From assembly GCA_002205965.3 (NCBI GenBank), contig NADL03000750.1:1860001-1924000 (forward strand): a stretch of 64,000 nucleotides of DNA, read 5' to 3'. A program made the position numbers and the translations under genes. This DNA is from Kappaphycus alvarezii. Lineage: Eukaryota > Rhodophyta > Florideophyceae > Gigartinales > Solieriaceae. A model generated the notes under the pieces. The model searched no databases. It worked only from the letters and a program-made list of their open reading frames with translations, and had not been told where the DNA came from. Positions 45,255 through 46,442 of this stretch are shown here, piece by piece. Within the stretch, counting starts at the first letter, position 1. Each line of letters opens with the position of its first letter.

Positions 45255-46442
45255 ATGGCGAGGACGAAGCAGTTGGCTAGGTTGAGCACGGGAGGAAAAG
45301 TGCCTCGAGAGAAGATCGCTACAAAGGCCGCGCGGATGTCAAGGGAAGCGGACGCCGAAACCCAGTCCAAACTACCTCCGCAGACAAGGGCACTTCTTGG
45401 AAGGTCGGACATTATTAAGATCATACACATTTCGCCAAAATAGTCCGATTTCGTTGTTTTCATCTCTGGGTCTCCGAGCATGACGAGGATTAGCGCTTGC
45501 GACTTTCTATTCCTATTTGGGAAGCATATAATGGACGCAGTTTACGTCCAGCCCACCAAGGAGCTTAAAAAGGAGATCGCCTGCCAATGGGGTTTAAAAG
45601 AATCCCTTTATGACTCCTTTACGTATAAGAAGGTGTTAGAAAAAGACAGGATTGTCAAATCTATAGTATGGGACGAGGATGAAGCGGTGTACAAGGGAGA
45701 AGATGAGACCACCAGGGAATTCCATACTATCCTTCTATACACCCTTTCCTTTGAGGGTGGAGGTAGTTCCTTCATGCACAGTATCGACGAGGAGGGTTTA
45801 TTCACGCTGGGTTCGGACACTAGTTGGGAGGCGATCTTTGAAATCCACGAATGGTGCCAGGAACACCCTGGCCGGAAGCTTCTTCTTTCCTTCACTCGCT
45901 CTCGGGAACCCCGCGATGATGAAACCAAGTACCGATCTTTCCCGCTCCTTTAGGCCCCGTTCATTGACCAGACAGAAGGGTGCATCGGCGCCTCCATCGC
46001 AAATGGGTTGCGAGAATTAGGGAAGGAGGACGATGCAAAGCGTTGGTTTGACTACTTTAGGTCAAATATGGCTCGATGCCACGCGAATCACTTGAGAGGA
46101 GGCCCTATCCGAGATATACGGGATGCCCAAAAGCACCTAGCCCCCAGGGAGGTTGTGCTCGAAAAACCCCTGCCGATGTATCCTTCCGTTAAATCTGCAT
46201 TGGCCTTGGACCCCGCCGTCTATATCGTCTCCATAGAAGGTTCCAACGGCGGCAGGCACTGCGTTGCGATGAATACTCGGACGGGTCACCTTCTCGACCC
46301 TGCTGAAACGTTCGTTCTTGAGCTCTCCGAGAAGTCCTTGGTTGAGTGCGTTGGCGTGAGTTCGACCTTCATCACGATACTGGAAGTTCGTTTGTACAGT
46401 ACAGTACAATACTGTACAGTACGAGTTATTTTTATATTATAG
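45255..46442 (+). pseudogene. Histone-H3-tail-mimic protein, copy B
   Basis: Unrecognised family. After Met it reads [18 protein letters not shown] then [10 protein letters not shown], identical to histone H3 at 21 of the first 28 positions. K4, R8, S10, K14, K23 and S28 are kept; T6 and K9 are Leu and K27 is Met. No histone fold follows. The middle domain shares with copy A the blocks RSDIIKIIHIS, FLFLFGKHIMDAVYV, KSIVWDEDEAVY, ILLYTLSFEG, HEWCQEHPGRKLLL and SREPR. The C-terminal part has EGCIGASIANGLRELG, KRWFDYFRSN and GGRHCVAMNTRTGHLLDPAE. A Cys at the head of a helix, then His, then Asp, is the pattern of papain-like peptidases. One frame runs the whole length, interrupted about twice, and its last codons run into the right inverted repeat. 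The basic tail of copy A is missing. Confidence 0.75.

Follow-up and report, generated by a model that had tools for sequence, protein, structure and literature searches.

A histone H3-tail mimic on a retroelement accessory protein in the red alga Kappaphycus alvarezii

The element and its surroundings

The DNA analyzed here (the window) is a stretch of 64,000 nucleotides from contig NADL03000750.1 of the Kappaphycus alvarezii assembly GCA_002205965.3. At positions 45255-45257 of the window an ATG opens a stretch of 29 residues in which Met is followed by 28 residues (encoded by 45258-45341) that coincide with those of histone H3 at 21 positions, with Leu at position 9 and Met at position 27 (Table 1). 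An earlier sequence-only reading had given these coordinates and residues exactly. The likeness is above chance, as the best phmmer match of the copy 1 tail protein among PDB sequences is histone H3 (E 2.2e-7), and it is matched at no fewer than 147 non-histone places of this genome. Pfam searches of proteins P0001, P0003, P0004 and P0010 recovered neither the histone fold (PF00125) nor any other family. The location of the tail within a mobile element, also proposed earlier, is borne out, the element being a short derivative of a gypsy-type retroelement family.

Copy 1 has arms of approximately 195 bp in inverted orientation, TG...CA ends and a 5-bp duplication (GGCCC). Of 54 other loci with a match upstream of the gene, 17 share homology with copy 1 from precisely 44552 onward and 8 more from a point at most six bases before it, which identifies this position as the edge of the element. 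Copy 1 is a derivative of a gypsy-type retroelement that lacks pol and has inverted arms. Two LTR-like inverted arms around a pol-less gene, together with the duplication, correspond to an LTR-to-TIR type of arrangement, as discussed for the origin of Ginger elements (PMC2836005; this and all other PMC-numbered papers are cited from the parts available).

Longer members of the family carry pol sequences. At locus L068 the strand opposite the tail gene encodes an RT-RNaseH region (RT_RNaseH, E 1.6e-39) and a weak integrase match, and the order RT-RNaseH then integrase recurs in the window, the rve matches (20.1 and 25.3 bits) falling under the curated cut-off of 32.6. When about 2 kb of downstream sequence was inspected by tblastn at each of the 40 loci L031-L070, 32 had pol beyond the tail gene in antisense orientation (7 had none and 1 a sense match only). 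Within the window, the accessory gene also lies antisense beside gypsy-type pol twice (copy 2 and a third remnant). Because of these two sites and the 32 loci, the accessory gene is placed antisense and beyond pol, strongly indicating, from gene order, that a Ty3/gypsy-type family carries an antisense accessory gene beyond its integrase. An LTR presumably follows on the far side of this ORF; no direct LTR pair was seen for the gypsy-type family, the arms of copy 1 being inverted.

Two other element types were considered. A classical DNA transposon with TIRs, suggested by the arms of copy 1, is ruled out by the antisense pol beside 32 of 40 longer copies. A Ginger DNA transposon is likewise ruled out, given the RT-RNaseH beside other copies and a copy 1 duplication that is GGCCC and not a 4-bp CCGG/CCGT.

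The window harbors further mobile sequences. Directly to the left of copy 1 lies a Tc1/mariner-type remnant (42860-44385) with inverted arms at 42860-43045 and 44198-44385 (92.6%) and a DDE_3 match in ORF 43548-44159 (E 5.5e-11). Transposase remnants, which we take to be Harbinger-type, occur at 40553-41134 and 61739-62197 (DDE_Tnp_4, E 1.6e-19; Plant_tran, E 1.4e-29), and a pair of direct repeats (15953-16195 and 24506-24746), 83% identical and about 8.5 kb apart, could represent the LTRs of another element. The gene beside copy 1 (47597-48586) encodes a dihydroxy-acid dehydratase (ILVD_EDD_N, E 1.1e-60).

Table 1. Features of the tail-bearing retroelement family in the window
Feature	Position	Strand	Basis or remarks
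RT-RNaseH region upstream of third remnant	26531..27057	+	tblastn
Integrase region adjoining third remnant	28824..29431	+	tblastn
Third remnant of accessory gene, Chondrus-like, no readable tail	29882..30692	-	homology
RT-RNaseH region with stops, element carrying copy 2	32806..33387	+	tblastn; Pfam on homologous L068 piece
Integrase region, element carrying copy 2	33875..34721	+	tblastn; Pfam
Accessory gene copy 2, group B, frameshifted; tail 36072-35986 with L9 and V27	34864..36072	-	homology
Target-site duplication GGCCC, left	44547..44551	.	flanks copy 1
Copy 1, a short retroelement derivative that contains the tail gene	44552..46586	+	ends TGTTGG...CCAACA; inverted arms
Left arm, probably outer part of LTR	44552..44741	+	matches a repeat that precedes the tail gene of many group A copies
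Broken accessory gene, copy 1	45255..46391	+	continuous homology; two in-frame TAG (45441, 45951)
Met and H3-like tail residues 1-28 (K4, L9, K14, K23, M27)	45255..45341	+	comparison with H3
Cysteine-protease-like region	45981..46298	+	candidate Cys 45981, His 46257, Asp 46296
Right arm, inverted copy of left arm (94%)	46393..46586	-	identity to left arm
Target-site duplication GGCCC, right	46587..46591	.	flanks copy 1

The accessory protein and its relatives

The reading frame of copy 1 stops at 45441 and 45951, yet protein homology to its relatives continues past both stops to 46391, which makes the tail part of a longer protein. With its two in-frame stops the gene is dead in this copy; the basic C-terminus of its relatives is missing as well. 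Although both stops are TAG, an alternative genetic code is ruled out: both places are free of stops in L002 and L003, for example, all three kinds of stop occur in other copies, and the long frame of L151 itself ends in TAG. This frame runs open for 421 residues from the tail Met, with no in-frame Met upstream, and includes the basic C-terminus; that of L150 spans 475 residues counted from its Met. The free tail proposed by the sequence-only reading is accordingly not supported: the tail forms the N-terminal end of an approximately 420-residue protein, and the 62-aa frame belongs to a mutated copy.

In this protein the tail is followed by a middle part with no Pfam match, a C..H..D cysteine-protease-like region and a basic C-terminus. 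The latter is strongly basic in L151, L065, L152, L002, L004 and P0004 (in L152 and L002 in a frame that differs from that of the start) and resembles a nuclear signal, suggesting that the protein would be nuclear. Its N-terminal Ala would be exposed. The Cys-His-Asp order (C243, H335, D348) does not vary among the three rows of alignment A5, which are copy 1, the Chondrus protein and P0010, and the arrangement presumably resembles that of a papain-like (C39-like) cysteine protease. The candidate catalytic Cys is also present in L150, L151 and L065; L003 and L004 have Tyr at this position. Pfam and PDB profile searches returned no fold for the protein beyond the tail, and the AlphaFold model (mean pLDDT 37.8) was too poor for a fold search.

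Relatives occur outside this genome. A Chondrus crispus protein of 487 residues (P0004; opening stretch of 29 residues) aligns with copy 1 from the first residue at 28% identity and has a tail with A9 and R27; P0028, likewise from Chondrus, is a fragment 97% identical to it. Between copy 1 and the Chondrus protein 23 of 28 tail residues are identical, against 26% of the rest (86/332 aligned), and between copies 1 and 2 the figures are 18/28 and 35%. Copy 2 and the partial protein P0027 (stretch of 29 residues) share 19/28 tail residues and 72% of the rest, the divergence being here as great in the tail as elsewhere. The JGI metagenome protein P0010 (stretch of 30 residues) shows weak homology outside the tail, its score being reached by 3 of 500 shuffles with P0004, 24 of 500 with copy 1 and 372 of 500 with copy 2. 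No relatives came to light in viral contigs (three scans) or in prokaryote genomes (one scan).

Five other non-histone metagenome or assembly proteins also start with an H3-like tail (P0072, P0084, P0085, P0086 and P0089). Lys 9 is kept in all of these except P0089, which has Arg; P0085 contains an F-box and P0086 also has Pfam domain matches. Fusions of H3 tails to other proteins may be commoner than thought.

Variation and maintenance of the tail

In order to assess how the tail varies, the 336-Mb genome was searched with the 62-aa frame of the window. Since 150 of 431 first-look candidates were scored, the counts are lower bounds. At least 147 places, both window copies included, match the query besides three H3 genes (L132, L137, L141) with ordinary tails that have K9 and K27. 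The tail occurs across family members. Tails were readable in 132 of the 147, the 15 that scored below 65 being left out of the residue counts; three look-alike pairs (L020/L021, L059/L060, L115/L116) are possible duplicates and were each counted. Many of the matched stretches contain stops.

Lys is absent from both silencing positions in these 132 tails. Position 9 is hydrophobic in every one (L 124, F 6, W 1, M 1), and position 27 is V in 55, M in 41, I in 18, N in 5, T in 4, F in 4, A in 2 and D, Y and R in one each, amounting to V, M or I in 114 and to L, I, V, M or F in 118. K4 (120/132), K23 (126/132) and R2 (111/132) are largely retained, while position 14 is divided between K (61) and R (61), with 10 others. 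The context of the lost lysines is partly kept: A7-R8-x-S10 is complete in 70 of 132 tails and A25-R26 in 86, with S28 in 35 of these. Sorted by the sequence that follows the tail, the 147 places form groups A (59), B (44), C (15) and D (7), with 22 unclassed. Position 27 is mostly M or I in group A, mostly V in group B, mostly V in group C (where S8 also occurs) and N or T in group D, five of whose seven tails have Val at position 1.

A query with the window's own tail favors relatives with L9 and M27, and a second search employed the Chondrus tail. It gave at least 91 matches, 88 of 842 candidates having been scored; judged by eye, none coincides with a place from the first set. Of the 28 matches beginning within query residues 1-14, 26 were taken, two beginning at residues 11 and 12 being left out, and 23 were readable, the other three scoring below 65. 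Here position 9 is R in 11, K in 9 and other in 3, position 27 is K in 15 and other in 8 (one M), position 4 is K in 15, N in 6 and R in 2, and position 2 is mostly H or K. Since this Chondrus-like branch keeps K27 in 15 of 23 tails and K9 in 9, loss of the silencing lysines is not family-wide, and the strict K9L/K27M state, as far as these tails indicate, is that of part of one branch.

The sequence-only reading consequently stands in part. Absence of Lys at positions 9 and 27 holds throughout the window-tail relatives but not in the Chondrus-like branch, for which this is partly the outcome that the reading itself had named as refuting the decoy. Met at 27 recurs (41/132) without being the rule, V being commoner, with I in 18 and others in 18. 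Leu at 9 is close to general (124/132), but trapping of SET domains has been described for Met, norleucine and, less so, Ile, and Met occupies position 9 in a single tail. The tree is compatible with one or with several origins of Leu9, as 22% of 200 bootstrap trees place the L9 rows together on one side; the clade of groups A and B received 92/97.

Substitution patterns strongly indicate that the tail was kept as protein while the family spread. Between groups A-D, with no correction for multiple hits, synonymous differences reach 0.74-0.91 and nonsynonymous ones 0.22-0.28, and pN/pS is 0.26-0.36 within the groups and 0.26-0.41 net between them. Against the three host H3 tails, net pN/pS is 0.45 for A, 0.95 for B, 1.15 for C and 0.48 for D, so that the transition from H3 to the family was not a conservative one. 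In a stricter selection of rows, the tail of group A (n=47) has a pN/pS of 0.39 versus 0.62 in the next 24 codons, and in group B (n=32) both values are 0.28. The tail is therefore maintained as protein, though not always more strictly than neighboring sequence.

Possible roles and comparison with known systems

Mobile elements are silenced via methylation of H3K9 and H3K27. We favor, with a probability of roughly 0.4, the interpretation that in the branch of window copies 1 and 2 the tail acts as a competitor of this machinery, borne by an antisense gypsy accessory protein. Removal of the Met would present a free A1-R2-T3-K4 end in the nucleus, where host enzymes and readers would take the accessory protein for H3. 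With Leu at 9 and with Val, Met or Ile at 27, hydrophobic residues that replace the silencing lysines in an H3-like context, the tail could not receive H3K9 or H3K27 methylation. It would compete as a pseudosubstrate or for readers and so weaken silencing of its element, with K4 still on offer; whatever the tail brings near might be acted on by the protease-like domain. A partly retained enzyme-binding context with a hydrophobic residue at the acceptor lysine would have the look of a K9/K27 methyltransferase competitor. Met at K27 and, to a lesser extent, Ile block PRC2 (PMC4446520), and SET domains are described as being held by Met, by norleucine and, more weakly, by Ile in place of these lysines (PMC4446520, PMC5030085, PMC6562757). 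In another red alga, Cyanidioschyzon merolae, H3K27me3 covers 50% of repetitive elements (PMC5405695), so that there may be something to evade.

The competitor interpretation is favored by the H3 likeness of the tail (E 2.2e-7), by its closer agreement between copy 1 and the Chondrus protein than that of the rest of the protein (23/28 against 26%), by the loss of K9 and K27 from all 132 tails while K4 (120) and K23 (126) persist, and by the hydrophobic residues at 9 (132/132) and 27 (118/132). The pN/pS of the tail in groups A and B (0.39 and 0.28), the 421-aa frame of L151, the antisense pol in 32 of 40 loci and the coexistence of three ordinary H3 tails in the genome are also in its favor. 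Against it, the Chondrus-like branch often keeps K27 (15/23) and K9 (9/23) and has a changed R2 and often a changed K4, and the available parts of the three papers on SET-domain traps do not show Val, Leu, Ala or Arg to act as such. Also, constraint on the group B tail does not exceed that on the 24 codons that follow, net pN/pS to host H3 is 0.95 and 1.15 in B and C, L003 and L004 have Tyr at the candidate catalytic Cys, and no direct LTR pair was seen. The narrower proposal of a captured H3 tail, borne by a nuclear protein encoded antisense and turned into a pseudosubstrate of the host H3K9/H3K27 methyltransferases, as an oncohistone-like means of self-desilencing, with a sister lineage that kept its lysines for another use, is tentative.

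Recruitment of H3 readers is a close rival, possible but on balance doubtful, and fits the Chondrus-like branch better than competition does. The tail would bind readers or writers of the H3 tail (through K4, acetyl-lysine or the N-terminus) and tether the protein to complexes that favor transcription or targeting, the changes at 9 and 27 merely avoiding silencing marks. The retention of R2, K4 and K23 in 111, 120 and 126 of the 132 tails agrees with it, as does a recognizable tail in the Chondrus-like branch where K27 is often retained, and antisense accessory proteins of plant gypsy elements, one of them nuclear, are proposed regulators (PMC11963269). It leaves unexplained, however, the constant bulky hydrophobic residue at 9 in 132 tails, and it does not sit well with Val at position 1 in five of seven group D tails or with the changes of R2 to H or K and, in part, of K4 to N in the Chondrus-like branch.

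Less probable is that the cysteine-protease-like domain would clip H3 tails and that the tail of the same protein serves it as an internal substrate or as a segment for autoinhibition. Such a role would accord with the invariant C..H..D residues of alignment A5 and with retention of the segment around residues 20-26, but the fold is putative, with neither a Pfam or PDB profile match nor a usable model, Tyr replaces the Cys in L003 and L004, and loss of K9 and K27 is not what it predicts. The decoy of the sequence-only reading, a free tail that through K9L and K27M would trap PRC2 together with K9 methyltransferases, is in its strict form unlikely: M27 (41/132) and I27 (18/132) do occur, and K27M and K9M trap SET enzymes (PMC4446520, PMC5030085), but the tail is not free, V27 outnumbers M27, position 9 has Leu instead of Met, and the Chondrus protein (A9/R27) and the Chondrus-like branch, which often keeps K27, depart from it. 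It is least probable of all, and quite improbable, that a functionless piece of a captured H3 gene has hitchhiked and been multiplied by the element. The stops in many matched stretches, the 15 of 147 unreadable tails and the equal constraint on group B tails and the next codons would be expected of such a piece, whereas pN/pS values of 0.26-0.36 within groups and 0.26-0.41 net between them, at synonymous differences of 0.74-0.91, and the better preservation of the tail than of the rest between distant members speak against it.

If the competitor interpretation is true, a retroelement with an H3 tail of its own, from which one abundant branch has lost the silencing lysines, would constitute a counter-silencing device that can be tested directly. 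It would also suggest a possible function for the antisense accessory genes of gypsy elements, the roles of which are described as unknown (PMC11963269). No case of histone-tail mimicry by transposable elements or antisense gypsy genes appeared among the open-license papers listed, which include few subscription journals. The naturally occurring tails (L9 combined with M, I, V, N or T at position 27; R9/K27; A9/R27) form a series that could reveal which features of the H3 tail are needed by readers and writers. From the residue and codon patterns, what we regard as shown is an H3-tail mimic on a retroelement accessory protein, kept by selection; the mimic itself is well supported.

Short H3-like sequences on parasite proteins are known from viral histone mimics such as influenza NS1. 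The present mimic differs from these in being an N-terminal tail of 28 residues, on a retroelement protein, from which the marked lysines have been removed in one branch. With the oncohistones H3 K27M and K9M it shares a hydrophobic residue in place of Lys in an H3 tail context (PMC4446520, PMC5030085); unlike them it is not a histone, has Leu at 9 and, in most tails, Val, Met or Ile at 27, and its inhibitory activity is putative. Copy 1 resembles Ginger elements in its TGTNR ends and inverted arms, and Ginger1 has gypsy-like integrase and cysteine protease domains (PMC2836005). The family described here differs in the RT-RNaseH of its longer loci and in having the protease-like region in a separate antisense gene, and copy 1 in its 5-bp GGCCC duplication, that of Ginger1 being of 4 bp (CCGG or CCGT; PMC2836005). 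The closest parallel in the position and orientation of the extra gene is found in the plant gypsy elements Retand (TRP28), Grande and RIRE2, whose antisense accessory ORFs lie between pol and the 3' LTR and, in the case of Grande, encode a product reported to be nuclear (PMC11963269). Unlike in Retand, neither TRP28 (PF04195) nor any other Pfam domain is present in P0003, P0004 and P0010, and the algal protein is set apart from the plant gypsy ORFs by its H3-tail N-terminus and C..H..D region.
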